From assembly GCA_003024785.1 (NCBI GenBank), contig PUQB01000259.1, positions 62,001 to 126,000 of the forward strand: 64,000 nucleotides of DNA. The letters are read 5' to 3'. Both the position numbers and the translations under genes were made by a program. The notes beneath the pieces were generated by a model. That model saw nothing but the letters and a program-made list of their open reading frames with translations, searched no databases and was not told the origin of the DNA. Source of the stretch: Selaginella tamariscina. Its lineage: Eukaryota > Streptophyta > Lycopodiopsida > Selaginellales > Selaginellaceae. Position 1 is the first letter of the stretch, and every line of letters begins with the position of its first letter. This document shows positions 6,101 to 32,459 of the stretch, piece by piece.

Positions 6101-6390
6101 GCTTTCGGATGCTTGACTAGCACACCCACTTTCCATTGTTTTGCTTGTCCATGCGATGTGACAGAGGTTAGTTTGACAGCAACCATGGTTGTTCCAATGC
6201 GCTTCCCGTTTAGTTTGAAATATGGCCAAGTTGATTCCAGAATCCCCCTGCTCATCTCTTCTCCTCCTCTCGTCTTCAATGTCACCTCAATTCCACATCT
6301 GAATACAAAAATGATTAGTTCTTCAAACACATATCCGAGTATAACAAATTTTATTTTAATTCTTACCCAGAATTTGACGACGACTCCATA
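3160..6390 (-). pseudogene. Decayed multi-exon gene with ParB-like and DNA methyltransferase-like parts
   Basis: Coding-like segments follow one another on the minus strand. The first is a short exon starting MESSSNSG at 6390 with a GTAAGA donor; its acceptor near 6304 joins a conserved-looking segment (WPYFKLNGKRIGTTMVAVKL). At 5557-5171 lies the part with the motif IISGQHTITAAQRLL, which matches the shape of the ParB box II (I-x-G-E-R-R-x-x-A-A). A Lys-rich linker follows (4680-4550), then an unrecognised domain (about 4550-3990). Near 3570-3500 comes FDYC-x-x-GSVLKECYL then CVAVEKDK, which looks like the SAM-binding motif I (D-x-F-x-G-x-G-S) of N4/N6 DNA methyltransferases. The tail (3500-3242) is Ser/Glu/Asp-rich. 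Several in-frame interruptions suggest a pseudogene, although good splice sites remain. The ParB reading is fairly firm; the methyltransferase reading is inference, and I found no clear DPPY-type catalytic motif. Confidence 0.45.
4768..4850 (+). repeat. Fragment of the 22-26 kb TIR element family
   Basis: About 85 bp match the left subterminal part of the two TIR elements at 22267 and 24188: GCTTAGTGCACTTGG, then ATCTAGTGATGGTC, then GTCATTAGGTATTT, in the same order and spacing. No TIR is left at this copy. It sits in a probable intron of the ParB-like gene, so the family has at least three insertion sites in 64 kb. Confidence 0.7.
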
Positions 6391-6730
6391 CTAATGACTC
6401 GATCTCCTTGTTTAATTAAATTGTCCTTCTGCAAAATAATACACTATGAATACAAATCATATAAAAACGCACACACACTTGTATAAACCCGAATATACAA
6501 AAATAATACACAGAGAGAAGTGGACGGAATTAACTGTCCAAAGCTCACATTTGTGCTAGTGCAAAAGAAAGATAACATTTCATTTTAGAACCACCACAAA
6601 TGTGACCTCCGGACAGTTTTACATAGATTCCTAGCTTTTACTCGAAATATTATGATAAGATGATAAAAGTAAATAAATGAGATATGCAACTTATATATAC
6701 TAATACTATATATATTCACATGGAAGGTAC
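6391..6730. other. Intergenic flank between ParB-like gene and LTR element
   Basis: AT-rich sequence with short CA runs, upstream of the minus-strand ParB-like gene. Its promoter would lie here, but I cannot point to a specific element. The LTR element begins at 6731. Confidence 0.4.
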
Positions 6731-7336
6731 TGTCACGACCCGATACAAGATACATGATATGGGTTGTAGGATATTCCTACAGGGATTCCGGATACAGGAT
6801 ACGGTCGCAGGATATTCCTACAGGATATACCACATGATAATTCCTACACGGATTCCGGATACAGAATACGGTCGCAAGATATTCCTACAGGATATACCAC
6901 AGGATATGCTTAAAGGATAAGGGACATGTGGACTCATCTTAGCCTCTGCATGCATGCAACCACTTTACATGCATACAACCACTTTTAGCACTCATGCCTA
7001 GATTAGCTCTTAGATTTGTAAGCATAAAAGCTCCGACCTAATTGTTAATCAGTTACTATCAACACCAGTCTTACTACGATTAATCTTGTCTTGTCTTATT
7101 CTTGTCTTTCTCTTGTTCTCTCCTTGTTTCGCTCCTGGATCCTGTCCTGTTCCTGTCTTGTTCCTAGATCCTGTCATGCGCCTTCCTGTCTTGCTCCTGG
7201 ATCCTATCCTGTTCCTGTCTTGCGCCTGTCTTGCTCTTGAGTTCCTAGTTCATGTCTGCTCTCTTGTCCTCCTGAGTCAAGCCTTCTTGTTCTTGGAATC
7301 TTGTTCTCTTCCTGGTTCCTGGATCGTGGCTTGACA
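6731..7336 (+). repeat. LTR 1 of the Ty3/gypsy chromovirus compound
   Basis: Starts TGTCACGACCCGATAC and ends CGTGGCTTGACA (TG...CA). The U3 part is made of short CAGGAT/TACAGGAT and TTCCTACAGG units. A CATAAAAG box near 7022 could be the TATA element. The downstream part is rich in CCTGT units, roughly the complement of the U3 units. The 5' flank reads GGTAC; the flank after the last LTR of the compound reads GGTGC, a possible target-site duplication with one mismatch. Confidence 0.85.
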
Positions 7337-8675
7337 GTTTGATAGTAACTGCTTTCATAGCTCTCCATTTTCCAGCTACTTTTTTTTCCTTGATTCTTTT
7401 CCTTTGTTTTCCTCCTTTTTTTTCATAGATCATGGCTGAGTTTAATTTCAACGCGAGCACCAAATGTTGCTTCATGAGCTGGCCACTTTGCGCCAAGTGG
7501 TCACCAATCTGCAAGGTTCCACCAATGTGGCGCATGCAGCTGCTGATGCATCCTCCAAGGCTGCTGCGCAGGCTCTCTCTCAGGCATCGGTGGTTCCCTC
7601 TTCCTCGAACTTTTCTTCGGAGCCAAAGGTCAGCATGCCAAAAAGTTCAGTGGCAATCGTGCCGATTTCCAAGGTTTCCTGAATCAGATCCGCTCTTGAT
7701 CCGCAACCACGCCGCTACTCGACTGATGCACAAAAGGTGGGTCTTTTGGCATCCTTACTAAGTGGATCTCCACGGGCTTGGGTTGCCCCCTTGCTGGAGC
7801 GTGACGACATTGATGAAGACTTTGAAGGTTTCGTGGCTGCCTTTGAAGCCTGCTTTGGAGATCGTTATAAGTACCGTTCTGCATGCACGAAGTTACGGAA
7901 GCTCACTCAAGGATCCCGACCAGCTTCTCTATGCATCCGAATTTCAGCAACTTTGCACGAACATTCCATGGGACGAGACTGCATTGATCGAACACTTCTG
8001 TTTTGGGTTGAGGGATGACGTGAAGGACCTTCTCCTTACGTTACCGGATGCCCAAACATTAACGAGATCATGCAACAAGCTGTTCGTTGCGACAACGTTT
8101 GTTCGAGCGTCGTCAGGAAAGATTCCGTCAGCAGTTCCTACAAACCAATCATGTAGCTGTGGTACATGTTCCTGCACCACCTTCTGGAGTAGTTCCTATG
8201 GAGGTTGAGAAATCCAAGCGTGGCTCTCTTTCCGCTGTTAAGAAGCAACATCGCCGCAGTGAGAACCTTTGCTTGTATTATGGTGAAGTAGGACACAAGG
8301 TGGCAGAATGTCCTATTAAAGCTAAGAAATTCAAGACGCGTGAAGTTGAAGCTGGAGTTCAATCGGAAAACTTTAATGTCCACTTCGTCTAGGTGCCGTG
8401 AAGTTGGACGTAGGTGCAAGCTCCATTGGTGCTGCTCATACCATTCCATCACTCAAGTTTCCTGTACACATTCATTTCAATAATCGAAAGCTCAAGGAGT
8501 TTGCCTTGTTAGACACTGGTGTAAATGCATGCTTCATGGATGACATTTTTGCAACTCAACATGGCATTTCGGTGGTGAAGTTAAAGCGTGTAGTTCCTGT
8601 AAAGTTCAAGGTCCTAAAGCTGCATCATTTAATTGCTTCTGGTGCAATTACCCATGCTACCCAACCTCTCTCCTG
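6731..8675 (+). mobile_element. 5' partial Ty3/gypsy chromovirus copy (LTR, gag, start of protease)
   Basis: A 5' LTR (6731-7336) is followed by a leader, a gag region and the start of a protease region with the DTG-type active-site context. It then stops abruptly at 8675, where the 5' LTR of the next copy begins. It matches the first 1.9 kb of the neighbouring complete copy in order and sequence. It is a broken fossil with several breaks. It is either an older copy into which the second element inserted, with its 3' part lost, or half of a tandem LTR-internal-LTR-internal-LTR product. Divergence from the neighbour looks modest. Confidence 0.85.
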
Positions 8676-9268
8676 TGTCATGACCCGATACAGGATACAG
8701 GATTCCGGATACAGGATATGGGTTGCAGGACTTTCCTACAGGATTCTGGATATAGGATATGGGTTGCAGGACTTTCCTACAGGATATTCCTACCAGGATT
8801 CCGGACACAGGATTCGGTTGCAGGATATTCCTACAGGATATGCCACAGGATATGCCTAGAGGATAAGGGACATGTGGACTCATCTTAGCCTCTGCATGCA
8901 TGCAGTCACTTTGCATGCATGCAACCACTTTTAGCACTCATGCCTAGATTAGCTCTTGGAGTTGTGAGCATAAAAGCTCCGACCTAATTGTTGTACAACA
9001 GTCTTACTACGATCAATCTCGTCTTGTCTTGTTCTTGTCTTGTTTCCTGTCCTGTCCTGTCTCGCTCTGTTTCCTGTCCTGCTCCTGGATCCTGTCCTGC
9101 TCTGTCTTGTTCCGGATCCTGTCCTGTTTATGTCTTATTCCTGTCCTGTCTTGCTCCTGATCCGTCCTGTTCCTGTTCCTAGTTCTCCTGCTCTCGGTCC
9201 TGTTCCTGAGTCAAGCCTTCTGTCCTTGGAATCCTGTCTCTTCCTGGTTCCTGGATCGTGGCTTGACA
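8676..9268 (+). repeat. LTR 2 (5' LTR of the complete chromovirus copy)
   Basis: Begins TGTCATGACCCG and ends GGCTTGACA, aligning throughout with LTRs 1 and 3. The sequence just after it (TTTGATAGTAACTGC) is the same as after LTR 1 and should hold the primer-binding site. It does not look like the common plant initiator-Met tRNA site. Confidence 0.85.
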
Positions 9269-9359
9269 GTTTGATAGTAACTGCTTCATAGTTCTCCGTT
9301 TTCCAGCTACTTTTTTTGATTCTTTTCCTTCATTTTCCTCCTTTTTCTTTCCTAGATCA

Positions 9360-12300
9360 TGGCTGATTTTGAGCGCTTTCAACGCGAGCACCAAATGTTG
9401 CTTCATGAGCTGGCCACTTTGCGCCAAGTGGTCACCGACCTGCAAGGTTCCACCACTGCGGCACATGCAGCTGCTGATGCATCCTCCAAGGCTGCTGCAG
9501 GCTCTCTCCCAGGCATCGGTGGTTCCCTCTTCATCAAACTTTTCTTCGGAGCCGAAGGTTAGCATGCCAGAGAAGTTCAGTGGCAATCGTGCCGATTTCC
9601 AAGGTTTCCTGAATCAGATCCGGCTCTTGATCCGTATGCAACCACGGCGCTACTCGACTGATGCTCAAAAGGTGGGTCTTTTGGCATCCTTACTAAGTGG
9701 ATCTCCACGGGCTTGGGTTGCCCCTTGCTGGAGCGTGACGATCCATTGATGGAAGACTTTGAAGGTTTCGTGGCTGCCTTTGAAGCCTGTTTTGGAGATC
9801 CTGATAAGTACCGTTCTGCATGCACGAAGTTACGGAAGCTCACTCAAGGATCCCGACCAGCTTCCGTCTATGCATCCGAATTTCAGCAACTTTGCACGAA
9901 CATTCCATGGGACGAGACTGCATTGATCGAACACTTCCGTTTTGGGTTGAGGGATGACGTGAAGGACCTTCTCCTTACGTTACCGGATGCCCAAACATTA
10001 GCGGAGATCATGCAACAAGCTGTTCGTTGCGACAACCGTTTGTTCGAGCGTCGTCAGGAAAGATCCCGTCAGCAGTTCCTGCAAACCAATCCTGCAGCTG
10101 TGGTACATGTTCCTGCACCACCTTCTGGAGTAGTTCCTATGGAGGTTGAGAAATCCAAGCGTGGCTCTCTTTCCGCTGCTGAGAAGCAACGTCGTCGCAG
10201 TGAGAACCTGTGCTTGTATTGTGGTGGAGCAGGACACAAGGTGGCAGATTGTCCTATTAAAGCCAGGAACTTCAAGACGCGTGAAGTTGAAGCTGAAGTT
10301 CAGTCGGAAAACTCCAATGTCCACTTCGTCTAGGAGCCGCGAAGTTGGACGTAGGTGCAGGCTCCATTGGTGCTGCTCATACCATCCATCACTTAAGTTT
10401 CCTGTACACATTCATCTTAATAATCGAGAGCTCATGGAGTTTGCCTTGTTAGACACTGGTGCAAATGCATGCTTCATGGATGACATTTGCAACTCAACAT
10501 GGCATTTCGGTGGTGAAGTTGAAGCGTGCAGTTCCTGTAGAGGTGGCCGATGGGCGTCTAATTGCTTCTGGCTTACCCATGCTACCGAACCTCTCCCTGC
10601 AGTTATGGCACATTCAACTGTTCAATTTCCTTCAACTTGATCAAGACTCGGTCGACTCCCATCATTTTGGGCATGCCATGGTTCGTTGTTGCAAATCCGC
10701 AGATCGACTGGAGGTCTAGGACGCTCACGTTTTCCTCTCCGACAGCTAGGATCAATCCTGTACCTTCCTGTGTGCAGGATACATCCTTAGTATCTGAGTA
10801 CAAGCTACAGGATTGACCGTGCCTGTTCCTGTACCAGTGTTGAAGACTCCTCCTCGACAGGATTCACCTCATGTCAGTTCCTCAGCACATCCGCAGGCTC
10901 TCTCCACTCCTGTAAGTTTGCGGTGTCCTGTACAGGGTTCTTCCAATCCTGTATCAGTGTCGAAGGTTCCTCCTCAACAGGATCCACCTCCTGTTGATTC
11001 GTCAGCACATTCGCAGGCTTTTCCCACTCCTGCGCAACCACGGACTCCTGTACAGGATTCTTCCAATCCTGTACACTCATCAACACCACACAGGTTTTTT
11101 CCAATCCTGCTTTTCTGTTACCCTGCTTCTGTTCCACCCCCAAGATCCTTCCTCTTTTCAGTCACAGCTCCCTCCTTCTCCTCTCCGAGTTCTTACCACT
11201 ACCATGCATGAACTCGCCACTGATCCTGCTCCCTTCCACCTTTGCCTTTCAAGTAACTCCTACGTCCTCTTCTACCTTTCCTGTATCCGACTCTCCTGTT
11301 TTTCTCTCCTTCTCCTTCTCCTTCTTCCCTACCATCCAAGTACACGACTTTAAGGACGTTTTTGACAAGCACAAGGCTGCAGTTCTTCCTGTTCACAGGT
11401 CCTACGACTGTCCTATTGATCTTGCGGAAGGAAAGACTCCACCATTCGGACCGATTTATGCATTGTCACCCACAGAGTTGGAGGTTCTTCGTCAACATCG
11501 AGGACAACTTGGCATCCGGCTTCATTCGTCACTCAAAGTCCCCTGCAGGAGCTCCTATCTTCTTTGTCAAGAAGAAGGATGGAGTTTACGTTTGGTTGTG
11601 GACTACAGGGGTTTGAATCAAGTCACCATTCGGAATCGGTACCCGTTGCCATTGATCCCGGAACTTCTCGATCGGCTGCGAGGAGCAAAGGTGTTCACGA
11701 AGATCGACTTACGAGGGCCTACAACCTTGTACGGATTCGTCCCGATGAGTGGAAGACTGCCTTTCGTACAAGGTATACACTTTTGAGTACACGGTAATGC
11801 CTTTCGGCCTTACCAATGCCCCAGCCGTGTTCCAACACATGGTGAACGACATTTTTGTGACTTCTTGGACCAGTTTGTGGTGATCTACCTCGACGACATT
11901 TTGATTTTCTCCAAGGACCAGGCGGCACATGACAAGCATGTACGATAGTTCTAGCGGCTTCGCGAGCATGGCTGTGCGAAGTTGGAGAAGTGTTTTTTTC
12001 GATAGGGATTCGTGGAGTTCTTGGGCTACATCGTCTCTCCTGCTGCGTTTCCATGGACATGCACAAGGTGAAGACCATCGTGGAGTGGGAGAGGCCCAAG
12101 TCGTACGAGATGTACAATGTTTCCTTGGCTTTGCAAACTTTACAGCGGTTCATACAGGACTTCTCCAAGCGTGTACTTCCACTCACGGAACTCACCAAGC
12201 GCACAGGGTTTTTCTTGGTCCACAAGGCGAAATGCATTCACAACACTCAAGGACGCCTTCACGACAGTTCCGATTTTAGCACATCCTGACCCTTCTCGTC

Positions 12301-14260
12301 CTTTCTTCGTTGAAGCAGATGCCTCGATTTTGAGTAGGATCCGTCCTATCACAAGTTGGAGAAGACAAGTTGCTTCATCCTGTAGCTTTTCACTCTCGTA
12401 AGTTCCTTTCGGTGGAGATCAATTACGAGATTCATGACAAGGAACTTAAGGCCATTGTGGATTCGTTCGAGGAGTGGCGGCATTTCCTGGAAGGTGCGCA
12501 TCCTGTACAAGTTCTTACGGATCACAAGAACCTGGAGTATTTCAAATGGCTCGAGTTCTTAGTCGGCGACAGGTAGGTGGGCGGAGTTCCTATCACGCTT
12601 TGATTTCATCATCGTCTACAGGCCCGGTTTTCAGAATGGCAAGGCGGACACATTGTCTAGGCGCTCTTACCTTGCACCGATCCTGGGCGATCCTACATAT
12701 GACTGTCAAAGACAAGTGTTGTTGGGTCCTGATCGTTTCCGGCTTGCGGCACTACATGTTCATCAGGCTCCAGCAAATTCAACACTCCTACAGAACATCC
12801 GTTCGCAGTTGGCTACAGACGACTTAGCAAAGAATGTGTTCTCACACATTCATCTTAACGTTGCAAGTTCCTCTTCCCCAGTTCCTGTTCAGACTACAAG
12901 TTGTTTGCCATACAGGATGGACTCCTGTACCGGGAAGGTCTCCTGTACGTTCCTGTTGGTATTTCCAGGACTCGTGTGGTACAGGATTGTCATGATACCC
13001 CGGCTACAGGACATTTTGGTGTGGCCAAGACAGTGGAGTTGGTGACTCGCAACTATTGGTGGCCTGGGTTGCGAGGTTTTGTGGAAAGGTTTGTACGGAG
13101 TTGTGACACTTGTAACAGGTCGAAGATGCCTCATCATGCACCCTCTGGTCTTCTTCGTCCTCTTCCTGTTCCTTCTGCTCCTTGGAATCCATTTCTATGG
13201 ATTTCCTCACAGATCTTCCTCCTTCTCGTGGATTCGATGCAGTTCTTGTGGTGGTTGACCGTTTCACCAAGCAGCTCATTTCCTACCCTGCAACAAGACA
13301 GCTACAGGTCAGAAACTGCTGAGTTGGTGATCCGTGAAGTGTTCCGACACATGGTCTTCCTGAGAGCATTGTTTCCGATCGAGGTCCACAATTCATGTCC
13401 AAGTTTTGGCGAGAGCTTCTTCGGAGTCTACAGGTTAAAGCGGATCTTTCTTCAGGATATCATCCGCAAACTGATGGGCAGTCCAAACACAATTCAGACC
13501 TTGGAACAGTATCTTCGTTGCTTCATCAGTTACCAGCAGGACAACTGTTGGACCTTTTTCCAATGGCGGAGTTTGCCTACAACAACTCCGTTCACGCATC
13601 TACAACAACACCTTTCTTTGCTCTTACAGGCCACCATCCACGTTTTGACTTTGCTCCTCCTCGCTTCTCCTTCTTCCGCTCCTGCAGTACAGGATCGTCT
13701 CCAGCATCTTCGTCAGGTACAGGATGATCTCCGGGTTCATCTTCAGCAGGCACAGGAACGATAAACATCATGCTGATGCTCATTGTCAGCCGGCATTGCA
13801 TACAAATTGGTGATCTCGTGTGGCTTCTTCGTCGACATATTCGCACCAATATGCCTTTCTTCTAAGTTGGATTTTCAACGATTGGGCCCTTATAGGATCG
13901 TGGCGGAGGTAAATCCTGTAGCTTTCCGACTCGAGTTACCATCCACGGTGAAACTTCATCCTGTGTTTCACACCTCTTGTTGGAGCCGTATCATCCTTCT
14001 TCTCTTCCGGTCGTGTTTCTTCTCCTCCCCCTCCTGTGGTCATTGACACTGAACCTGAGTACGAAGTTGCAGCCATCCTTGATTCTCGTCTTCATCGTCA
14101 CCAACTCCAATACTTGGTGGATTGGAAAGGTATTTGCCTACTGATCGCACTTGGGAACCTGCATCCAACTTACTCCATGCTTCTTCCAAGGTTGCTGCCT
14201 TCCATCGGCATTATCCTGCTAAACCAGGTCCCAAGACTCGTGGAACTCGTCTTTAGGGAG
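9360..14260 (+). pseudogene. gag-pol region of the chromovirus
   Basis: Gag begins MADFERFQREHQ with a coiled-coil-like start, followed by the retrotransposon gag domain and a CCHC knuckle (CLYCGGAGHKVADC) near 10210-10250. The protease (LLDTGANACFMDD) is near 10450. A Pro/Ser-rich linker spans about 10820-11200. Reverse transcriptase ([25 protein letters not shown]) runs from about 11340 to 12000, with RNase H after it. The integrase has an HHCC-type zinc-finger region (GHFGVAKTVELV, then [10 protein letters not shown]) near 13010-13130, and the chromodomain ([24 protein letters not shown] in part) is at about 14055-14130. The region is a fossil with many breaks. Family placement rests on domain order and the chromodomain. 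Confidence 0.85.
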
Positions 14261-14267
14261 GAGGTGC

Positions 14268-14879
14268 TGTCACGACCCGATACAGGATACAGGATATGGG
14301 TTGCAGGATTTCCTACAGGATTCCATACAGGATAGGTGCAGGATATTCTACAGGATTCCTACAGGATATTCCTACAGGATTCCGGACACAGGATCGGTTG
14401 CAGGATATTCCTACAGGATATGCCACAGGATATGCCTAGAGGATAAGGGACATGTGGACTCATCTTAGCCTCTGCATGCATGCAATCACTTTTGCATGCA
14501 TGCAACCACTTTTAGCACTCATGCCTAGATTAGCTCTTGGAGTTGTGAGCATAAAAGCTCCGACCTAATTGTTGTACAATCAGTTACTATCAACACCAGT
14601 CTTACTACGATCAATCTTGTCTTGTCTTTTCTTGTTTCTTGTTTTTCCTCCTTGTCTGCTCTTTTCTTCCTGTCTCCTCCTGGATCCTGTCCTGTTCCTG
14701 TCTTTTCCTGGATCCTATCCTGCTTCCTGTCTTGCTCCGGATCCTATCCTGATCCTGTCTTGCTCCTAATCCGCCTGTCTTTCCTAGTTCCTGTTCCTGC
14801 TCTCGGTCCTGTTCCTGAGTCAAGCCTTCATGTCCTTGGAATCCTGCTCTCTTCCTGGTTCCTGGATCGTGGCTTGACA
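14268..14879 (+). repeat. LTR 3 (3' LTR of the chromovirus compound)
   Basis: Starts TGTCACGACCCG and ends GGCTTGACA, matching LTRs 1 and 2. It is flanked by GGTGC on both sides: inside as the end of the purine tract, outside as the first bases before the palindrome array. The array starts immediately after it. Confidence 0.85.
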
Positions 14880-16075
14880 GGTGCGGCGGGATTGATTTCG
14901 CCACCCTTCAATGCCTCTAAAAAGAGTGGGCGGGATTAATCTCGCCACCTTTCTGGAGGCCCTGAACGGGTATGAGGGATTAATCCTGCCACCCTTCTCG
15001 GTCTCAGAGAGAACTTGGCAGGATTTATTTGGCACACCCCTTCAGTGGCTCCAGAAAGCGGCGGGATTAATCTCGCCCACCATGTAAAAGATGGTGAAAT
15101 GAATCTCGCCACTTTCTCAGTCCCCTCCATTGGTATGTTATAAACCTTCTACGTCTCAGACAGAAACGTTTGGGATTGGTCCGACTCACCAATGGAGGAA
15201 AAAGGAAAGGGTGGCGGGATTCATCCCTCCAACAGGCATTGAAGCCTCGGCGGGATTAATCCCGCCGGACGCCAATGCCCTGTGTGAAATCCGGCGGAAT
15301 TAATCCTGCCGCCTAGGCCCTTCAGACAGGCCTTTGGCGGCGGATAAATTCCGCCCAATTCTGCACAGGGCATGTGTACACGGCGGGATTAATCCCGCCA
15401 GACGCCAATGCCTGCGCGGAATCGAGCGGGATTAATCCCGCGCCTAGGCCCTTTAGGCAAGCCTTTGGCAGTGGGATAAATCCCGCCCGACTCCGTGCAG
15501 GGCATGCATATGCGGCGGGATTAATCCCGCTGCCCAGGCCCTTCACTCGAGTCCTAGGCGGCAGGATTAATCCCACCGGACGCCAATGCCCTTCGCAGAA
15601 TCGGGCGGATTAATCCCGCCGCCTAGGCCCTTTAGGCAGGCCTTTGGCGACGAGATAAATCCCGCCTGATTCCGCACAAGGCATGTGTACGCGGCGGGAT
15701 TAATCCCGCCGGATGCCAATGCCCTGTGCGGAATCCGGCGGGATTAATCCCGCCGCCTAGGCCCTTCAGACAGGCCAATGGCGGCGGGATAAATCCCGCC
15801 GGATTCCACACAGGGCATGCGTGAGCGACGGGATTAATCCCGCCGCTCTTCGGTTAGCTCATGGGTGGCAGGATTAATCCCGCCACTCATGAGGCTAACC
15901 GAATAACCTGCCTGAAATGGCGGCATGATTAATCCCGCTGCTCATGAGGCTAACCGAATAACCTGCCTAAAGGGCGCGGAATTAATCCCGCCGCCAAGGG
16001 ACTAACCATATAGCGGCAGGATTAATCCCGTCGCTACACACGTCTCACCATATAGCAGCGGGATTAATCCCGCCG

Positions 16076-16080
<5 letters not shown>
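14880..16080. repeat. Palindrome array 1: about 26 copies of GGCGGGATTAATCCCGCC
   Basis: About 26 exact or near copies of an 18-bp perfect palindrome lie in 1.2 kb of GC-rich DNA inside an AT-rich region. Common variants are GGATAAATCC and single changes in the GGCGGG arms. In the regular part the centres lie 43-46 bases apart (for example about 15257, 15301, 15346, 15390, 15433, 15478, 15522), just over four DNA turns. Spacers differ, but many are inverted repeats of one another. The left part (14880-15230) is more degenerate. Because the palindrome has no stop codon in any frame it creates meaningless GGINPA/AGLIPP-type reading frames. The array shows no similarity to the adjacent LTR. Confidence 0.95.
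15249..15835. repeat. Higher-order repeat of three palindromes, unit about 133 bp
   Basis: Inside array 1 the order palindrome - X - palindrome - Y - palindrome - X' recurs about four times. X contains CCAATGCCCTGTGCGGAAT, and X' is close to its reverse complement (ATTCCGCACAGGGCATG). Y (GCCTAGGCCC ... GGCCTTTGGC) is itself roughly self-complementary and is followed by the GGATAAATCC variant of the palindrome. Every palindrome is therefore also the centre of a larger inverted repeat, and a whole unit can fold back on itself. This is read directly from the sequence. Confidence 0.88.
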
Positions 16081-16156
<76 letters not shown>

Positions 16157-16636
16157 TATATGTATATGTGTGTGTAGGAGAGTGCATGTGTGTGCCACAG
16201 ATAGACAAATCAGATAAATTATACTGATACACACAGACATGATTATATGTATATGTATATCATATGTGTGTGCTAAATAAATAAATTATACATATACACA
16301 CACACACAACACATATATATGTATATGATATGTATATTTATGTATATGTATATGTATATACAGGAGTGTGCATGTGTGTGCGAGAGATAGATAAATAAAT
16401 AAAATTATACAGATACTGGTACACATAATATATGTATGTATATATGTACATAGGTATATATATATATGTGTGTATATGTATATCGTGTGTATGCGTGTGT
16501 GAAAACAAATAAATCATACAGATAAACAAACACACACACACATATATATATATACAGGAGTGTGCGTGTGTGTGCGAGACATACAATTAACAAATCAATA
16601 AAATTATACAGATACACACACACAACCACCATATAT

Positions 16637-16683
<47 letters not shown>

Positions 16684-16985
16684 CGTGAGTATGCGTGTGT
16701 GAGCGAAACAAATAAAATCATAACAGATAACAAGAGTGTGCGTGCGTGTGCAAGAAATAAAAATTAATAAATTAATAAAATTATACAGATACACAAACAC
16801 AACACACATAGATATATATATATATATCTGTTGTGTTATATGTATACGAGTGTGCGTGTGTGTGCGAGAAATAGAGATCTAAATTATATTATTAAGATAC
16901 ACACACATATAAATATATATATGAATAAAAATAAATAAATAAACTCAGGAGTGTGCGTGTGAGAGAGAGAGAGAGATCTGATCTC
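16081..16985. repeat. (CA)n/(TA)n microsatellite block with degenerate minisatellite
   Basis: Starts with (CA)n and (TA)n directly after array 1. A unit of variable length then recurs about seven times, containing GAGTGTGCGTGTGTGTGCGAG, then AGATAAATAAATAAAATTATACAGATAC, then CA and TA runs. Open frames here are low-complexity and not genes. No gene or RNA is seen. Confidence 0.8.
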
Positions 16986-17214
16986 ACAGTCGCCGCCTTG
17001 CTTCTTCACAAACCCTAGGAATATAGTTAAACCCTAAAAAAAATAGAATATATATTAACCCTAATTGAATATTCCTTCTAAGAATATACTTAAACCTTAA
17101 AAAGAATAAACTTAGATTCGCCCTAAACAAATTTCTTTCATTATATTATCAGCGTGTGCGTGTGCGTGGGTGTATCACATACACCCCAAGAATAAATATC
17201 ATGCAGGGGTTTAA
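16986..17214. other. Short unique stretch between repeat blocks
   Basis: Contains AAACCCTA-type motifs and AT-rich sequence; no gene seen. Confidence 0.4.
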
Positions 17215-17960
17215 CACGTGTGTGTCATGAGAGTATTAAAGTTTCACATGCAGCGATACATATATACACACATAGTATTATACCATAGACATACATACAT
17301 ATTAGTACATATTAATATTAGAGAGACAGAGTACATGATTATGTATGGTGTGTATGTACGAGAGAAGAGTGACAATACATATTATGGATCATGCATGGTG
17401 TGTATGTTTGAGAGAAGAGAGACAATACATATTTACATGGATCATGCATGGTGTGTATGTATGAGAAAAGAGAAAGAGTGTTAACAAATTAAATTCATAC
17501 ACATTGCATATATTAGTACACACATATACATACACACGTGTATACACACAGACATACATACATATTACATGTGTAAATTCAATGTGCCTACATAGGGTTT
17601 TAGGTTTAGGGTTTAGGGTTAGGATGGATCATGCATGGTGTTTATGTATGAGAGGAGTGAGTGTTATACACAGATATACATTATACATATTACATAATGT
17701 TGTAACATCAGTACATATTATGGATCATGCATGGTGTGTATGTATGAAAGAAGAGTCAGGTTATATATTATGGATCATGATTATGCATGGTGTGTATGTA
17801 TGAGAGAAGGGATTATGCATGCTGACACTATGTATGTATGAGATAAGAAATAAAGTGTTAACAAATGAAATCGTACACATTGCATATATTAGTACACATA
17901 TATACATACACACGTGTATACACACATGTGTAAATTCAATGTGTTACATACACACAGACT
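17215..17960. repeat. Minisatellite with ATTATGGATCATGCATGG core, plus telomere-like run
   Basis: About six to seven copies of a unit of roughly 55-65 bp hold ATGGATCATGCATGG followed by TGTGTATGTATGAGAGAAGAG. A second, longer motif (TTAGTACACATATACATACACACGTGTATACACA) occurs twice, at about 17512 and 17890. A short run of plant telomere-like repeats (TTTAGGGTTTAGGGTTAGG) lies at about 17607-17625. Reading frames across this block are artefacts of the repeat. Confidence 0.8.
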
Positions 17961-18154
17961 AAGTACATATATATCATACATGCGTTGAACATGATTGTTT
18001 TCAATAAAGAAGCAACATATAATTTCTCAAGTTTGGTTTAGGGCAATGTGCATGTGTGTGCATATGTGTCTTGTAAGTGCTTCTAATGCGTGTGCACGTT
18101 ATATATAAATTTATGATTGTGTTTATATATATGTGCAAAACAAACATCGAATAA

Positions 18155-18900
18155 TTAAGAAAATAATATTAATATACACACTATGAACATATTTTAAATT
18201 ATACATAATAATATATGATTTTATCTAATATATAGCCATATATAGTTTTAATAATATATATTAATTTAATATTGATAATAAGGTTTAACATTAGAATATT
18301 CTTGAAATAATAAGAAATTAATTGAGAAAATCCCATTAATATATACAAATGTAGATCAAGTATTGAAATAATTAACTAAATTAATTATGATAATCATGTT
18401 TAATATTGAAATATTCTTGGAATAATAAGAAAATAATAAAGAATATCGCATTAATATAAAGAAGATTAATTACTCAAGTAATTAAGAAAATGATATTAAT
18501 ATACACACTATGAACATATTTTAAATTATACATAATAATACATCATTTTATCTAATATATAGTCATATATAGTTTTAATAATATATATTAATTTAATATT
18601 GATAATAAGGTTTAACATAGGAATATTCTTGAAATAATAACAAATTAATTGAGAAAATCCCATTAATATATACAAATGTAGAATAATTACTGAGATAATT
18701 AAGAATAAGACTAATTTAATTATGATAATCAGGTTTAATATTAATATTCTTTCAATATTAAGAAAATAATAAAGAATATCCCATTAATAGTAGGAAATGT
18801 AAATTAATTACTCGAGTAATTAAGAAAATAATAATAATAAACAGACTATGAATATATTTTAAATGATACATAATAATATATCAATTTATTTATTGTATTA
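18155..18900. repeat. Tandem repeat of about 325 bp, 2.3 copies
   Basis: ATTAATATACACACTATGAACATATTTTAAATTATACATAATAATA recurs (in part) at about 18169, 18496 and, more diverged, 18823. The intervening AT-rich sequence also aligns (AATATTGATAATAAGGTTTAACAT; GAGAAAATCCCATTAATATATAC). It is a local duplication without coding signal. An (AT)n run follows at 18903-18945. Confidence 0.8.
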
Positions 18901-18950
<50 letters not shown>

Positions 18951-19049
18951 AATAATATATACTTGAATATTAAGAATGTAGAATAATTACAAAAATTTCG
19001 TAATATTAAACAGCTTGAAGCACTTGAATAACATTAAATGCAATTTTAA

Positions 19050-19524
19050 AACACTCATTGGAATTGGAGAGTATATATGTCAGACTGTCGGTTATTTGTT
19101 TCAACTCATCTTAAATTTTCTTTTCTGTTATTTCAAAAATTTCGAATTTCTGACATAAGTATTATCGGTCTGACATGTAAATTTGAAAATGCATTTAATT
19201 TCCACTCAAATTCAGATCTGGTTCTTTCTCCGGCAAGGGTTTCTTCATTTCTTTATTTTTCACTCTTCAGATTTTCTTTTTTCTTCTTAGTGATAGCTAG
19301 GAGCGACATTAAATTGGGTGCGCTATTGTTTATAGGAAAGCACGGCGCCTTCATGCTGTTTACAAGTAAGTATTATAAACAAATTTAATATATTTATAAA
19401 GATTCACTCTCTTACATTCTCTCTTAAATTTTAGAATTTAGGGATTTAGGAATGCATTAGGATTACAATATATTCTGTTAGGGATTTATCCCGTTTAAAT
19501 TTTTTAACTTAATATTCTCGGTTA
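19050..19524 (+). other. Possible leader exon with GTAAGT donor upstream of the DUF7869-type gene
   Basis: A pyrimidine-rich stretch (19220-19290) is followed by less biased sequence ending TTTACAA then GTAAGTATT at about 19371, a strong donor. The first good acceptor that leads into recognisable coding sequence is at 20394 (TTATGTGCAG). If these are joined, this is a 5' untranslated exon and palindrome array 2 lies in the leader intron. This is inference; no transcript data are available. Confidence 0.3.
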
Positions 19525-20250
19525 GCCGGGGCGGCGGGATTAATCCGGCCATTTTTTTTGCCTCTTTGAAGAGGTGGCGGGATTAATCCCACCACCATCT
19601 CTTTCAATTATGCAGAATTATCGGGCAATGCTTCTCCGCCTCTTAAAAAGAGCGGCGGATTAATCCCGCCGATAACTCTCTCAACTGATAAAGATTTACT
19701 TGAATTTATTAGAAAGAGTTGTCGGCGGGATTAATCTCGCCAACCATTTTAGAGGCAGAGAAGGGGTGGCGGGATTAATCTCGCCACACTTCCCTGTTTT
19801 AAATATTTGTGGCAGATTCATCCCGAATCTCTTTGAAATCATAGTTTCGGAGAGAGTTGTGGGCGGGATTAATCCCGCCGCCTATTCTCCATCGTCAGTG
19901 TTGTGGGCGGGATTAATCCCGCCCCTCTTCCTCGTCGGAGGATTTGCGGCGGGATTAATCCCCCGATCTCCCGTCGAGGAAGAGGCGGCGGGATTAATCC
20001 CGCCGTACTTCCTCGTCGAGGAGTCCGCGGGATTAATCCCGCCGCTCTCTCCCGAGGAGACCGCGGCGGGATTAATCCCGCCGACTCTCTCGGGAGAGTC
20101 GGCGGGATTAATCCCGCCGACTCTCTCCGAGGGTAGAGTCGACGGCGGGATTAATCCCGCCGACTCACTCCGAAGGGGTAGAGTGCGGCGGGATTAATCC
20201 CGCCCATCGTTCCTCGTCGGAGGAGTGTGGGCGGGATTAATCCCGCCCAT
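19525..20250. repeat. Palindrome array 2: about 16 copies of GGCGGGATTAATCCCGCC
   Basis: The same 18-bp palindrome as array 1, here about 16 copies. The right part is dense: centres at about 19870, 19914, 19956, 19995, 20034, 20073, 20109, 20152, 20195 and 20238, that is 36-44 bases apart. Spacers are not shared with the regular part of array 1. Many are short hairpins themselves (GACTCTCTCGGGAGAGTC; TCCTCGTCGGAGGA). The left part has longer spacers with GCCTCTT/AAGAGG inverted pairs, which resemble the degenerate left end of array 1. The array ends sharply before ordinary AT-rich DNA about 145 bp ahead of the first recognised coding exon of the next gene. Confidence 0.95.
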
Positions 20251-22266
20251 CAGTTGTATTAATAAAGCATGAGATATTATCTTTATACATAATTATGTAT
20301 TATTGCACATGCATATTATTAAGCAAACCAGTTATGATTTCTTAGAAATATTGCATAAACAGATATCATAAATAACACAATTATTTATGTGCAGGACAAT
20401 ATGTATAATACTGGAGATAAAGTATGTCTTCTTCGGAACAACGAGATAGTTGGCACTGGAACTGTGGAAGTTCGAGATGATAATGCATCATGTCACAATA
20501 TTGCCCAAGGATCTTGTGTGTACGTATGGGTGAACACCATTTTCAAGCATGTTGAGGTTCCGAATGGAATTTGAGGAGGGTTCTCCTGTATTGTGGAATT
20601 TGGATGAAGTCAAGGCTGACACAGAATATACAGAGTCACAAACAAACAGTAGCACGAGTTTTCCAGATGATGGCTTGCCTGCTGTGATGGATGAGGTGAT
20701 TCTCTTTCTTCATGAGATTGAGGTTGGGAGAGGCATCATCACAGCTATAAATCCAATGGAAGCAGTGTCAGAAGAGAAACTAGGGTCCGACTTCGTGGGT
20801 GTAGTTGTGACAGAGGTTTCACCTAATGGCACTTTGCATCCTGGATCCCTCGTGAGGTGGCGAACATCTGAATTAAGACGGCAAGATGGTTCAACATATT
20901 CTGGGTTGGATTTCAATAATAACAACCCGGAAGAACAACTCATATTTGAAGAGGTTCCTTGCATTGGTCCTATTATAAGAAAAAGGCGATTCATGGGTTG
21001 CAGATCTTCCCCTGCAAGTTTCAGCAAGAGGGTGAAGATGGATCCTACATCTTCCGAAAGTGTTACGAGCATTTCCACGATTGACTGCTGCAAGAAGAAG
21101 TGTTGTCAGATGGCAGACCGGAATGAAATTACCCAATGTAGACATGTCTTTCGTACGCTCACCCAAAAGCAAAGGCATGAGTTTGTATATGCTGCACTAA
21201 CTGGGTGTATTGATGGAATGGCCTCGGACACAGGTTATCAGAGTACATCCATGGTATTTAATAAGGTGGCCATCTGCTTCAAAGCTTGGTACAGTATATA
21301 CGGGATCCCAAAGACCACGTTCTACCGTCGGAGGGATGAGTGGCTAGATGGAGCGCGAACCTCAGTACATGGGAACACTGCTTGGTCAAAACCCGCTCTC
21401 ACATTATGGCAGCCATAGAGATACTCAAGGCTTTTGTGGAAGCAAATGCAGACAGGATGCCTCACAAATGCCGAACCACAAATGCAGGGGTCAGGGAAAA
21501 TCTCAAGGTTTTGCCTTCGATCTACACTCAATTGAAGCTGTGTGAACATGTGAACAAGTGCCTCAGCTTGATGGGGCTGCAAGCAATCTGCACTGGTACC
21601 TTCAACAACATATGGAATACTCATTTTAAGGATGTGGAGATTGCAAAACACTCTAGCTTTTCCAAGTGTGACACTTGTACATCATTGAAGGCTGCAGAGG
21701 CTTGTGCAAAAACCTTGGTGGAGATCACTGCCATTCAAAAGAAGATGGAGGCCCACATGATTGCACAACAAACTTGCCGGTCTCAGTACTATGCACACCG
21801 CATGCTTTCTGTGTCACGCCCATCAGAGTACCTGTGCTTGATCCATGACAAGATGGATCATTCAAAGACCAGCATTCCAAAGCTCGTTGCAACACCAAAG
21901 TGCCTTGGAAATGTCATGAAACTTCCGATTTCATTGACAGGTGTGCTAACACATGGACACGGTTGTGAGTCATATGGACACTTTTCACTTCCACATTGGT
22001 CTAGCGACTCCAATTTCACTATTGGGTCGTTGGCCATGTGTTTCAGAAACCTTGAAGCCCACTCACAGACAAGTCCTATCAGTGATCTCAAAGTGAAGAA
22101 ACAACACCTTCAACCTTTACATAATGCTCTCATGAACACGTCTGCACTTGAGGCTACTTGGGAATATGAGAGGCATTGTAGCAGCCTGCACAAAAAACAG
22201 ATGGCCCTGTTGAGAGTTCAGGTTCAGTGGAGGGATCTAGCTCAAATAGTGTACATGTGTCCTTAA

Positions 22267-24086
22267 TGTCATAGTTTTTACTATGACTCGACCCTTTACT
22301 TTGGACGTTGACTGTTGTTACCTACTGTACTATGTTGATGGACCCTAGATGTAGTAGGAAACAGGCCCGCTTAGTGCACTTGGGTATCTGGTGATGGTCC
22401 GGCTGGGTGTCATTAGGTATTTGCAGGAAACTCTAAGCGAAGCTAGAACTTACCTTCTAGAAACCCACCCCCAATTTTGACGTCCCGAATAGGTTGTTTG
22501 GTCTTTGCAAATGAGTTCGGCGTGTTAAGTAGGGTTAGGAACACCCCTAGGGTTGACCTAACCCATGCCCTAAAACCCCCACCCCCTTGGGTAGGGTTTA
22601 GGGGTAGGAGTAAGGGTGAGTTATGGGCTCATAATGTTAATTTATCTAAGGGTTAGAATTCAATGCCAGCCCACTAATACAAATAGGAAAAGAGGGGGGG
22701 GGGCTCCGTCACATAAATAAGGTAGAGTATATGTAGGAGAGCTCCTGGGCTCATGAATGAGTTCGTTGCTCTTCTGCCGGTGCAAGCTTTAGCTTGTGTC
22801 GTTAAGGTACAACCCTCTGTTGTGCCGCCCTAACTTCCAGATGCCAGGGGTACGTCCCACCTTCGGGGTAGCTTACCCTTAATGTTGGCGAATCCATGCC
22901 TGGGAGGTCTTATCGGAATGCATGTTCCAAGAGGCAGAGGTTGAGGCTTGTCTCCGGCCTCCTCCTCCACGTCAAGCTAGGTGTAGCACTCACGGCCAAG
23001 CAAGGCACATCTGTGTCCTTGCCCAATTGTGAGGGTGGGATCTTGTTTGACAGGTACATGTTACTTGGTTCCTGAGGGTTCATTGAGGGGTTCCAGAGTC
23101 GGCATTTAGGAGCCACGTTAGTGGCACTTGGTGCAACTCTTGAATCTAAGGGCTATGGCATGATAGCCCACATCGGGGAAGGCAGTGTCACATGGAGATG
23201 TGACACTGGGCTAAAAGTCACATGGTACAACGCTCGAGGCACGCCCTTTGGGGTTATGTCATGGGCTTGTCGCCAAGGGGTTGGATACCTTAGCAAATAG
23301 ACATGCTTGTGCTCGCACTAGGGTGCTAAGCCTTGGGCATCCGCTCAAGGGAGGTTAGGTCTCATAACTAGGTGTGCTTTGACACACTTGGCTAGGGGAG
23401 TGTTCTCCTTGGAATCCAAAGGTTGAACAACCTAAGCTCATTAGCAGAAGCCCTTTCATGAGGCACTTGCAAGGTCATGTGCTTAGGGTTATCCCAAACC
23501 TAGCCTTAAGGAGTTTGCTTAGCAGAACACTCGTGTCCGCCTACGGCACACACTCGTGTCCTCACTAAGTACTAACCCTAGGTCTAGGGTATAACTTGGC
23601 CACTCAAACCCTTAGGGGTTAGTCGTGGTTCAGGGTACCCCTTGTCGCCCTAAAGGGGTTGTACTCCCGGATGAGGGTGATTCCTCAAGGGGTAAGTGAC
23701 GATGCCTTAGCTCTGTCTAGGGGTATGTGTGGAACACACGTCTCCTTGATGGGGGTTAGGGCATGAGCCTGTCTAGGTCTTCTAGGGCAAGACCCTAAGT
23801 CAACTAGGGTTATCCCTCAAGGGTTTTGGGGTAGACACTCTAAGGAGACTTAGGCTAAACCCTAAGTCAACTAGGGTTATCCCTCAAGGGTTCTGGGGGT
23901 AGACATTCTAGGAGACTTAGGCTAAACCCTAAGTCTCCTGTCCACTTGGGCATTAGAGTCTAACCCTAGGGGTCGTTGGGGTTGTTCTGGGAAACTTAGC
24001 GTTGCTCACACAGGGTGATGACGCCAAATGGCCACCTGGCGGCCACGTGTTGCCACGTGTTGGCCCTTTGGGTTAAAACTCTGACA
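22267..24086 (+). mobile_element. TIR element copy A (1.82 kb, non-autonomous)
   Basis: Begins TGTCATAGTTTTTACTATGA and ends TTAAAACTCTGACA, whose reverse complement TGTCAGAGTTTTAA matches the start, so it has imperfect terminal inverted repeats. The left end also holds its own hairpin (GTCATAGT/ACTATGAC). It is flanked by CTTAA on both sides. Removing the element and one CTTAA restores an open frame into the DUF7869 exon, so this is a true insertion. Inside it is GC-richer than the surroundings and has a G run and a VNTR of about 72 bp with 2 units. No transposase is seen. Superfamily is uncertain. Confidence 0.8.
23800..23935. repeat. VNTR of copy A, two units of about 72 bp
   Basis: Units contain CTAAGTCAACTAGGGTTATC, CCTCAAGGGTT and GGAGACTTAGGCTAAAC. 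The corresponding VNTR in copy B at about 25675-25950 has four units. Confidence 0.8.
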
Positions 24087-24187
24087 CTTAACATCAAATA
24101 AGCTTCCTCGTCATTTGCTTTTACAAATGGATAATTGTGCAGGCGAGAACAAAAATAGGTAAATCATTTACTTAAGGGTTTCTCATG

Positions 24188-26101
24188 TGTCATAGTTTTT
24201 ACTATGACTCCTCTTTACTTTGGACATTGACTATTGTTACCTACTATACTATGTTGATAAGCCCTAGGTGTAGAAGAAACAGGCCCACTTAGTGCACTTG
24301 GATATCTAGTGATGGTCTGGCCGGGTGTCATTAGGTATTTGCAAGAAACTCTAGGCGAAGCTAGCACTTTCATCTAAAAAACTCTTACCTTGGTTTTCGT
24401 GTCCCGGTTGGATTAATGGCTAGTTCCGGTGAGTTCGGCATGTCGGATATATTTAGAAATATCCCCAGGTTTGACAGGTTAGGGTTTAGGGGTCTATGGA
24501 TAACTCACCAAGTATGTTCCCTCTGGGAATGAGATTTCAATGCTAGCCCACTTATGTAAACAGGAAAACAGGGGGGGGGGGGGGGCCTCTGTCACATAAA
24601 TAAGGTAGTATATAGGAATGAGGGTTCCTAGGTTCATGACTGAGCTCGTTACTCTTCTCCCGGTGCAAGCTCTAGCTTGTGTCGTCAAGGCACAACCCTC
24701 TGTTGTGCCGCCCTAACTTTCAGCTGCCAGGGGTACGTCCCACCTTCGGGGTAGCTTACCCTTAACATTGGCGAATCCATGCCTGGGAGGTCTTGTCGGA
24801 ATGCGCGTTCCAAGAGGCAGAGGTTGAGGCTTGTCTCCAGCCTCCTCCTCCACGTCAAGCTAGGTGTAGCACTCACAGTCAAGCAAGGCACATCCGTGTC
24901 CTTATCCAACTGTGGGCGTGGGATCTTGTTTGACAGGTTCACATTACCAGTTCCTGAGGGTTCACTAAAGGGGTTCTAGAGTTGGCATTTAGGAGCCACG
25001 TTTGTGGCACTTGGTGCAACTCTTGAATCTAAGGGCTATGGCATGATAGCTCACATCGGGAAAGGCAGTGTCACATGGAGATGTGACACTAGGCTAAATG
25101 TCACATGGTACAACGCCTGAGGCACGCCCTTTGGGGTTATGTCATAGGCTTGTCGCCAAGGGGTTGGATACTTTAGCAAACAAACATGCTTGTGCTTGCA
25201 CTAGGGTGCTAAGCCTTGGGCATCCTCAAGGGAGGTTAGGTCTCATAACTAGGTGTGCTTTGGCACACTTGGCTAGGGGAGTGTTCTCCTTGGAATTCAA
25301 GGGTTGAACAACCTAAACATGTTAGCAGGAGCCCTTTCATGAGGCACTCGTAAGGTCATGTGCTTAGGGTTATCCCAAACTTAGCCTTAGGAGTTTGCTT
25401 AGCAGAACACTCGTGTCCGCCTACAGCGCACACTCGTGTCCTCACTAAGTACTAACCCTAGGTCTAGGGTATAACTTGGCCACTCAAACCCTTAGGGGTT
25501 AGTCGTGGTTCAGGGTACCCCTTGCCGCCTAAAGGGGTTGTACTTCCGGATGAGGGTGATTCCTCAAGGGGTAAGTGACGATGCCTTAGCTCTGTCCAGG
25601 GGTATGTGTGGAACACACGTCTCCTTGATGGGGGTTAGGGCATGAGCCTATCTAGGTCTTCTAGGGCAAGACCCTAAGTCAACTAGGGTTATCCCTCAAG
25701 GGTTTTGGGGTAGACACTCTAGGGAGACTTAGGCTAAACCCTAAGTCAACTAGGGTTATCCCTCAAGGGTTCTAAGGGCAGACATTCTAGGGAGACTTAG
25801 GCTAAACCCTAAGTCAACTAGGGTTATCCCTCAAGGTTCTAAGGGCAGACATTCTAGGGAGACTTAGGCTAAACCCTAAGTCAACTAGGGTTATCCCTCA
25901 AGGGTTCTGGGGGCAAACATTCTAGGGAGACTTAGGCTAAACCCTAAGTCTCCTGTCCACTTGGGCATTAGAGTCTAACCCTAGGGGTCATTGGGGTTGT
26001 TCTGGGAAACTTAGCGTTGCTCACACAGGGTGATAACGCCAAATGGCCACCTGGCAGCCACGTGTTGCCACGTGTTGGCCCTTTGGGTTAAAACTCTGAC
26101 A
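24188..26101 (+). mobile_element. TIR element copy B (1.91 kb, same family)
   Basis: Aligns with copy A over its whole length with the same orientation and ends (TGTCATAG ... ACTCTGACA). Flanks read TTTCTCATG on the left and TTTCTCAAG on the right, a 7-9 bp target duplication, while copy A has an exact 5-bp CTTAA. The internal VNTR (CAACTAGGGTTATCCCTC unit) has 4 copies here against 2 in copy A, which explains most of the length difference. It lies inside the intron between the DUF7869 exons ending at 24158 and starting at 26135. Confidence 0.8.
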
Positions 26102-27175
26102 TTTCTCAAGCTCATACTTACTTTTATTTTCTAGATATATGCTAGCATACTTGTCAATGCTTGTTGGCAAAGGTGTGTTTGAAACAATCACACTCAGTTT
26201 TCTTATGGTTAGTCACACTCATGAAAATATTGATGCATTCTTCAGCAAGGTCTCCAACTCTACAAAAAGGACAAGTGCACTTACCTTACCGCATATGATG
26301 AATCTTTTTGAAAACTGCGTCTCCAAAAAAAGTTATGCTTTGCTTGTGACTGAGGTGCCAGACTTCAAAAAATTTCTCAAGGAGTATATAAAGAAGGGAG
26401 TGATTCTTTAGTTGGTCACCTTGTGCCGCTACAATTCTTTTTCTCCATACGAGATGATACCTATTATGCAGTACAAGTTACGGCCATTAGAGCAAGAGTG
26501 GTTACCAAAAGAGGGGTTAATGCTCTTCAAAAGTGGAGAGAATGGAAAGCCACTTCTCTCAGAAGGACAACTAGACCCTATTCCATTGAGTGCCCAGCTC
26601 AAGGAACAAGAGGTTATTATTGATGGCATCAAAAAATATGTGGCATGGGTTCAAAAATCGATGCCAAAGAATTCTGATAAGGCAACTAGTTACTCAGAAC
26701 TATATAAGCATGTGGTCGACTATTGGGAGACTATTGTTCGAGAGCTGGAAGGGCCTACTGTCACAAGTACAGAATTGCAACACCCTTTTTGGCCTAAAAC
26801 AAGGTGGCGAGAGGAGATTGAAACGACATCACTGAGCACAAACGACATAGAAGCCAGTAATGATGTGGAAGTGCAAAACCCCACACTTTGTTTAAACAAA
26901 GGAACTAAAAACCTAAAGCATACTTTGATTGCTGCCAAGATCTTCAAAAACTAATGATGGTTTTCATTACTCCAGATGCATCATATAATCAGCCTATTTG
27001 GATGGGTCAAATTATCGACACACCTGAAGTAATCACAAAAAATAATATTGTTAAGGTTGCATGGTTCAAACCACAAAAAAAGCAACACGAGAAGGAGAGC
27101 GAAAGATATAATGGATGCCTAGAGAAAAACATAGTCTCTCAATCAAAAAGACCTAGCATATTTTATAAATGTTAA

Positions 27176-27790: not shown

Positions 27791-27812
27791 TTAATTAACT
27801 ATTAAGGAAAGC

Positions 27813-28204
27813 ATGTATTAAATTCACGAATGTGATCTTATATTTGGAGAGATTCATACTGCACTTGACCTGAGGAGTCCATAGTCCCCGGAAAGTGGGA
27901 ATTGAAACGTTTATTACGCACATAGCTAGTCCGTAGTAAACTTTGCCTGTAAAAATACAATTAGATAGCTTAAGTAATAAGAAAACATCTTTATTTATAT
28001 ATATATACACATATACATTTCTAGTCATTCGTTTTTTCTCTGAAGGACATGAAAATACAGTGATAAAGGGCTAAATGGAAGTTATTTTGTTAATTAGATA
28101 TATACTCTCACTTCTTTTATATATATAAACTAAGTGGGCTAAGTATACACTTCTCAATCATCTAAAGAGAGCCAACAAGAAAACATAGCATTCTAGTATA
28201 TACA

Positions 28205-28236
<32 letters not shown>

Positions 28237-28395
28237 TCTCTCTCTCTCTCTCACACACACACACGAACCATTTGGTGCATGAAAGCTATCTGTGAATGAG
28301 AGTAAGAAACACAAATAATAAGGCCAAGCTCAACCAGCAACTTTCCACGCCGGACAGGATTGGATCGAGCGTTTGAAAGAAGAGTACAGTACGTT
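27813..28395 (-). pseudogene. Inverted partial copy of the DMP gene
   Basis: The reverse strand matches the neighbouring DMP gene at 28992-29891 closely: the end of its exon 1 (CTCGATCCAATCCTGTCCGG), the whole intron including the GT/GA microsatellite and flanking unique bases, and the first half of exon 2 (GGCAAAGTTTACTACGGACT). It has an insertion of about 24 bases in exon 2 and lacks both ends of the gene, so it is a pseudogene fragment. Copy and gene face each other as an inverted repeat with arms of about 580 bp and a spacer of about 740 bp. Confidence 0.85.

Positions 28396-32401: not shown

Positions 32402-32459
<58 letters not shown>

Follow-up and report, generated by a model that had tools for sequence, protein, structure and literature searches.

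Two arrays of an 18-bp palindrome lie between two diverging, apparently broken genes in Selaginella tamariscina

Why is one short palindrome repeated so many times, and so evenly, in a plant genome, and what might have used it? We addressed this question in a 64,000-nucleotide stretch of Selaginella tamariscina DNA (assembly GCA_003024785.1, contig PUQB01000259.1, positions 62,001 to 126,000 of the forward strand), referred to below as the window. The 18-bp palindrome GGCGGGATTAATCCCGCC (hereafter P) is present in 39 copies at ≤3 mismatches in the 64-kb window, compared to 0 in 100 dinucleotide shuffles, which provides the comparison with random expectation that the initial annotation of this DNA had proposed. 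At this threshold, 23 copies belong to a first array, 15 to a second, and 1 lies alone at 4958 (Table 1). The approximately 26 palindromes announced for 14880-16080 were recovered as 26 counted copies, 4 of them exact. That annotation had missed array 2 and the lone copy, as well as the neighbouring genes and the inverted relationship between spacers. Outside the two arrays, the window contains 1 copy at ≤5 mismatches and 6 at ≤6. Palindromy essentially ends with the 18-mer: when 12 flanking positions were compared in each array, p < 0.05 was reached only at the one immediately next to it (palindromic in 17/26 copies, p = 0.003, in array 1 and in 9/16, p = 0.044, in array 2).

Table 1. Features of the palindrome locus (window coordinates)
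Feature	Position	Strand	Remarks
Left gene	3498-6428 (approx.)	-	Apparently broken: in-frame stops, frame changes (by eye); N-terminal domain in ORF 6031-6390
Putative left-gene intron	4991-4931	-	61 nt, GTAAGC...TTTTCAG, by eye; contains lone P copy
Lone P copy	4958-4975	.	2 mismatches; inside putative 61-nt intron of left gene
LTR retrotransposon	6731-14879	+	gag and integrase zinc-binding matches; three LTR copies; target duplication GGTAC/GGTGC, one mismatch
Array 1	14885-16074	.	26 P copies at ≤7 mismatches, 4 exact; median spacing 44 bp
Higher-order repeat region	15248-15845	.	~133-bp unit inside array 1; four units aligned
Array 2	19533-20247	.	16 P copies at ≤7 mismatches, 8 exact
Right gene	20395-27172 (approx.)	+	Apparently broken; open frame shifts within 20534-20571 and within 21340-21415; interrupted by two solo LTRs
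TNP1/En/Spm-like stretch, right gene	about 20711-20818	+	PF03017, sub-threshold
DUF7869 (PF25273) piece 1	about 21910-22059	+	ORF 21340-22263, 25.5 bits, just below cut-off 26
Solo LTR 1	22266-24086	+	Inside right gene; CTTAA on either side
Solo LTR 2	about 24188-26101	+	Related to solo LTR 1; without clean duplication
DUF7869 (PF25273) piece 2	26133-26396	+	ORF 26100-26408, 87.7 bits vs cut-off 26, E 9.7e-25

The copies are also regularly spaced. Steps of 42-46 bp account for 18 of the 25 steps in array 1 (mean 1.8, maximum 9, in 5000 random placements) and for 8 of the 15 in array 2 (mean 1.1, maximum 6, again in 5000), in agreement with the recurrence every 43-46 bases noted initially. The contrast in regularity is weaker by the coefficient of variation, where a few random placements were equally low (0.33 in array 1 vs. 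a random mean of 0.58 and minimum of 0.30; 0.24 in array 2 vs. 0.56 and 0.24, respectively). The further proposal that all copies face the same side of the helix fails in array 1 (R 0.19, nR2 0.99 at 10.5 bp, n = 26; the best of six helical periods was 11.0 bp, with nR2 2.07) and is marginal in array 2 (nR2 3.15 at 10.5 bp, the highest value among the six periods). A 44-bp step corresponds arithmetically to 4.19 turns, or about 69 degrees per copy.

Both arrays lie between two diverging genes, and no palindrome array was found 3′ of either gene within the window. Some of the frame changes in these genes could be due to unrecognised splicing or assembly errors. A comparison of the N-terminal parts of the left and right genes gave a score of 55, vs. 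a maximum of 43 in 1000 shuffles. Among 48 ORF pairs, one reached z 6.9, two reached 2.6 and the other 45 were at ≤2.5; a short first-exon match between the genes (DN....GD) was equalled in 1 of 1000 shuffles. Other N-terminal comparisons were weak or null (33/1000 shuffles as high for the left piece vs. right piece 1, and 463/1000 for right piece 1 vs. right piece 2). Array 2 ends 147 bp upstream of the first recognised right-gene exon, while array 1 lies about 300 bp upstream of the first left-gene exon, if the retrotransposon at 6731-14879 is discounted. Given the related N-terminal parts, these positions mean that a palindrome array of its own precedes each of the two related gene starts. 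A first intron may contain array 2 (AA/GTAAGT at 19366, GCAG ending at 20394, by eye).

The right gene shows a weak resemblance to PF03017 (TNP1/Transposase_23), with an E-value of 0.022 and 15.1 bits vs. a cut-off of 21 for the trimmed piece, and an E-value of 0.16 for the whole ORF. The N-terminal piece of the left gene gave no PF03017 match, and no left-gene ORF scanned reached a Pfam cut-off. By its profile match, the predicted DUF7869 domain of the right gene is clear, with a conserved HDKMD and, by eye, DNCAGENKN and HTHENID stretches. Three protein relatives of the DUF7869 ORF were found and none of the left-gene ORF; AlphaFold modelling gave results of low confidence (mean pLDDT 51.7 and 36.7). 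A ParB-like identity for the left gene (motif SGQHTITAAQRLL, by eye) was dropped, since neither Pfam, PHROGs, NCBIfam nor PDB sequences supported it; the left-gene ORF 5174-5623 (- strand) has a ParB/sulfiredoxin-type look by eye only. The ORF adjoining the left gene (1979-2938, - strand) has a NIF-type phosphatase domain (E 3.3e-9) and could be either a host gene or one captured by an element.

The retrotransposon between the left gene and array 1, which is read as being of the Ty3/gypsy type and is not part of the palindrome finding, ends five bases before the first palindrome of array 1. Its order reads LTR-gag-LTR-gag-pol-LTR, with an extra LTR-gag copy that perhaps came from unequal recombination. 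The two solo LTRs inside the DUF7869 gene are about 1.8-1.9 kb each and 100 bp apart, and a fragment of the same LTR was seen by eye near 4730-4850 in the left gene. A second retrotransposon (37957-42503) has protease and reverse transcriptase between direct repeats of about 206 bp (37957-38160 and 42298-42503) and looks young, since these repeats are 98.5% identical. Elsewhere, 27800-33228 and 47430-47999 contain DNA repeats in both inverted and direct orientation, identified by eye as fragments of DUF679 (DMP) genes, presumably a plant family; DUF679 was confirmed by Pfam in ORF 28980-29375. The DNA between the arrays (16078-18961) is long, AT-rich and microsatellite-rich, with diverged direct repeats.

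Is it the palindrome or the whole unit that has been kept? P copies are more alike than spacers in all five sub-arrays, even when the better strand is taken for the spacers (Table 2), in keeping with the earlier view that selection or copying acts on the palindrome itself. Between the arrays, P copies are.844 alike and spacers.455 (shuffled.438, sd.004; 23/25 and 13/15 spacers, very short or long ones being dropped). Within sub-arrays, spacer identity exceeds that of shuffled spacers, which indicates that the units share descent, most weakly in array 2 left. Part of array 1 is organised in a higher-order repeat whose unit of about 133 bp has the layout P-S1-P-S2-P-S1′, with three palindromes each and S1′ resembling the reverse complement of S1. 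The spacers are thus diverged tandem and inverted duplicates. The statement that spacers are not the same therefore holds in that they differ, but overlooks both this repeat and the likeness of spacers within sub-arrays. In the four aligned units, pairwise differences affect 29/315 P sites vs. 87/477 spacer sites; the contrast is weaker when variable columns are counted (12/54 vs. 27/80). Decay of P by methylation was considered and dropped: G:C to A:T changes make up 23 of 36 in array 1, but only 3 of 10 in array 2, and those of array 1 show no CG or CHG excess (CG 8/92, CHG 4/46, CHH 11/138 sites; P copies with >3 mismatches were dropped from these counts).

Table 2. Mean identity of palindromes and spacers by sub-array
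Sub-array	P	Spacers, same strand	Spacers, better strand	Spacers, shuffled	Number of spacers
Array 1 left	.731	.552	.638	.417	4
Array 1 higher-order	.842	.544	.593	.430	13
Array 1 right	.833	.502	.570	.378	5
Array 2 left	.767	.403	.436	.370	6
Array 2 right	.963	.574	.618	.417	9

The arrays have a strong potential to fold back on themselves, so that the structural side of the initial idea of a fold-back element is borne out. For single-stranded DNA from 19853-20260, in the right part of array 2, the folding energy is -173 kcal/mol (z -20.5), and 15692-15846 in array 1 is predicted to form one long RNA hairpin (-126.1 kcal/mol, z -15.8). When spacers were shuffled with the palindromes kept, the RNA fold was weaker in each of five segments, together holding 24 of the 26 P copies in array 1 and every one of the 16 in array 2 (z -4.7, -12.0, -6.7, -7.0 and -7.9; 0/60 shuffles as low in each). 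The spacers therefore carry complementarity of their own and, since they pair with each other, the arrays are composite palindromes assembled from smaller ones. Individually, 4 of the 15 spacers in array 2 and 1 of the 25 in array 1 were more self-complementary than shuffles (p < 0.05); spacer self-complementarity is clear only in the whole-segment fold and not spacer by spacer. Covariation in the hairpin was not significant: in four units, 3 pairs had changed on both sides vs. 1.9 expected, with 121 of 500 shuffles as high. We would therefore read the fold as the outcome of inverted duplication, rather than of selection for an RNA shape. No Rfam family matched at gathering thresholds.

The explanation we favour, and to which we give an even chance of being right, is that a decayed DNA-transposon-like element carried the arrays as its cis-acting repeats, along with the two divergent genes. 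P is kept better than its neighbours and recurs next to the starts of two genes with a domain in common; the most fitting interpretation is that the copies form a row of sites for a dimeric protein of the element. Each gene would encode the same kind of N-terminal domain, weakly PF03017-like, and would have its own array just upstream or in the first intron. Most likely, a symmetric, dimeric DNA-binding protein encoded by the element would recognise the 18-mer. Many sites in a row could allow cooperative binding and thereby control of the element's own genes. TNPA binds the subterminal repeats of CACTA elements, and a row of P sites could similarly promote the assembly of transposition complexes, the element protein perhaps pairing the element for transposition. 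Growth of the arrays would have proceeded through duplications, both tandem and inverted, with the hairpin-forming palindrome as a natural point of switching. The sequence directly shows the two arrays, a P better kept than the spacers, the inverted structure of the spacers, the relatedness of the gene N-termini and DUF7869; the identity and limits of the element, the binder, its function and the growth mechanism are inferred. The palindromes may thus be docking sites of a protein that controlled or moved a genetic parasite. The multivalent platform for a dimeric factor put forward initially is, as a putative function, compatible with P being better kept than the spacers. The search for terminal inverted repeats, for a target duplication and for another copy of the element found none of these. 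The missing ends and the sub-threshold PF03017 match weigh most heavily against this explanation; the position of the arrays between the genes instead of near proven ends, the weak or null results of two further N-terminal comparisons, the weaker contrast in variable columns and the likeness of P in array 1 left, at just 73%, also count against it.

An unlikely alternative is that the arrays are a palindromic satellite produced by mutation alone, through hairpin-driven template switching and unequal exchange, with no protein using them. Spacers that are inverted duplicates, a fold stability raised beyond that of the palindromes in 5/5 segments (z -4.7 to -12.0) and lacking significant covariation in four units, and two genes that look dead would all fit such a history. 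Neutral copying alone, however, does not hold P at 96% identity next to spacers at 57%, and it leaves the placement beside two related gene starts unexplained.

We are similarly doubtful that P is the site of a host transcription factor, for example an E2F-like or, as we assume to be a candidate, a GARP-like factor, which a transposon took up and multiplied. The 18-mer was compared with the plant E2F consensus forms, which we take to be WTTSSCSS, TTTCCCGCC, TTTSSCGC and TTTSGCGC. It does not contain the consensus in any form compared: it comes within one mismatch of WTTSSCSS, but needs at least 2 for TTTCCCGCC and TTTSSCGC and 3 for TTTSGCGC. The unit that is conserved is moreover the symmetric 18-mer and not a 10-bp site. 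Amplification of E2F sites by transposons does have a precedent in Brassicaceae MITEs (PMC12595863).

It is improbable that 14885-20247 is a Foldback-like non-autonomous element, in which an AT-rich loop of 3.4 kb would be enclosed by the arrays as long repetitive terminal repeats. The locus does have two arrays around an AT-rich centre without recognised genes, and tandem transposase sites are carried by the ends of Galileo (PMC3688188). Of the spacer matches between the arrays, the top one is inverted (score 15 vs. a shuffled 95% limit of 12), but the second best is direct (score 13, limit 12), and the matching spacers are outer in array 1 and inner in array 2, i.e. not mirrored. By eye, no target duplication was seen around 14885 and 20247, the left side being obscured by the retrotransposon inserted at 14880, and the related gene starts would again go unexplained.

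A selfish, self-inserting mini-palindrome comparable to the hairpin-forming elements of mitochondria is highly improbable: one lone copy does lie in a putative intron, but the 44-bp spacing is regular, the spacers are related, and the rest of the window holds no further copy at ≤5 mismatches. All copies at this threshold are confined to 4958-20247, beside the two related genes, which speaks against the free-living selfish palindrome considered in the initial annotation. Palindromic tandem DNA is hard to assemble, but an assembly artefact is the least credible account of two separate arrays with different spacers, in which copies and spacers are individually different.

Returning to the transposon-like element, a more specific and decidedly tentative proposal is that the window preserves a defunct member of a plant DNA transposon superfamily that has yet to be described. 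DUF7869, with the HDKMD, DNCAGENKN and HTHENID stretches given above, would be its DDE-type transposase, the second gene would share the N-terminal domain, and both genes would be driven from, and mobilised through, arrays of the 18-bp palindrome bound by the shared domain as a dimer. If the explanation favoured above is right, a single 18-mer becomes a handle for finding and naming a plant transposon family behind a domain of 'unknown function', and the arrays offer a natural, easily synthesised multivalent binding platform. A palindrome that is better kept than the DNA in between would also allow binding-site selection and hairpin-driven copying to be separated in other genomes.

The collections searched were of viruses, phages and prokaryotes. 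The 18-mer occurred in IMG/VR as a single copy on one contig, roughly the chance level by a rough estimate, and DUF7869 queries yielded no confirmed relative there. P followed by GGATTAATCC 16-46 bases further on was found 0 times in the bacterial/archaeal genome set, and the right part of array 2 (19853-20260) had no match in phages. The reading frame through array 2, used as a probe for similar arrays, detected none among 7995 candidates scored. In PMC open papers, the full 18-mer and 'DUF7869' gave no match; shorter pieces did, in 60 papers, which look unrelated by title among the matches listed.

Does the element belong to a known group? CACTA ends were sought as the CACTACAAGAAAA type, which we take to be the CACTA-type terminal inverted repeat. 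There were 2 matches to CACTACAA vs. 2.75 expected and 5 to CACTACNAGAAAA at ≤2 mismatches vs. 7.55 expected, none of them at an array edge. PF02992, presumably the tnp2-type transposase, did not appear when ORFs around the arrays, and 10 of 76 further ORFs ≥60 aa, were scanned against Pfam. With no CACTA end found and no tnp2 in the scanned ORFs, we have not filed the element as CACTA.

By analogy, the closest parallel is nevertheless a CACTA element, soybean Tgmt*, whose 24 subterminal repeats, within 732 bp, can form 12 palindromes; these are proposed sites of an element protein, with binding left to be determined by the authors (PMC2613891). The likenesses are the many short motif copies making about a dozen stem-loops in about 0.7 kb, the GC-rich and AT-rich parts of the motif, and a TNP1 domain in the element's gene, sub-threshold in our case. 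The differences are that we see one 18-bp perfect palindrome instead of separate inverted motif copies, and arrays at gene starts between divergent genes, with no CACTA terminal repeat or tnp2 found. The ends of the Foldback-like Galileo consist of tandem repeats with several sites for the THAP domain of the transposase (PMC3688188). The arrays resemble these ends in being tandem repeats that hold multiple, here putative, protein sites, and depart from it in having no P-element-type transposase match among the scanned ORFs and no proven pair of terminal inverted repeats. In the Brassicaceae, E2F sites have been amplified by MITEs and Helitrons (PMC12595863); there too a motif has been multiplied by transposons, but the 18-mer is not a consensus E2F site. 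The hr regions of baculoviruses, which are insect viruses, contain imperfect palindromes of 28-30 bp bound by IE1 and act as enhancers and replication origins (PMC2834656), a likeness of design only. Finally, PMC2800124 describes repetitive hairpin-forming elements in the intergenic DNA of sponge mitochondria; in contrast to these organelle inserts, the Selaginella palindromes form regular arrays beside transposon-like genes.
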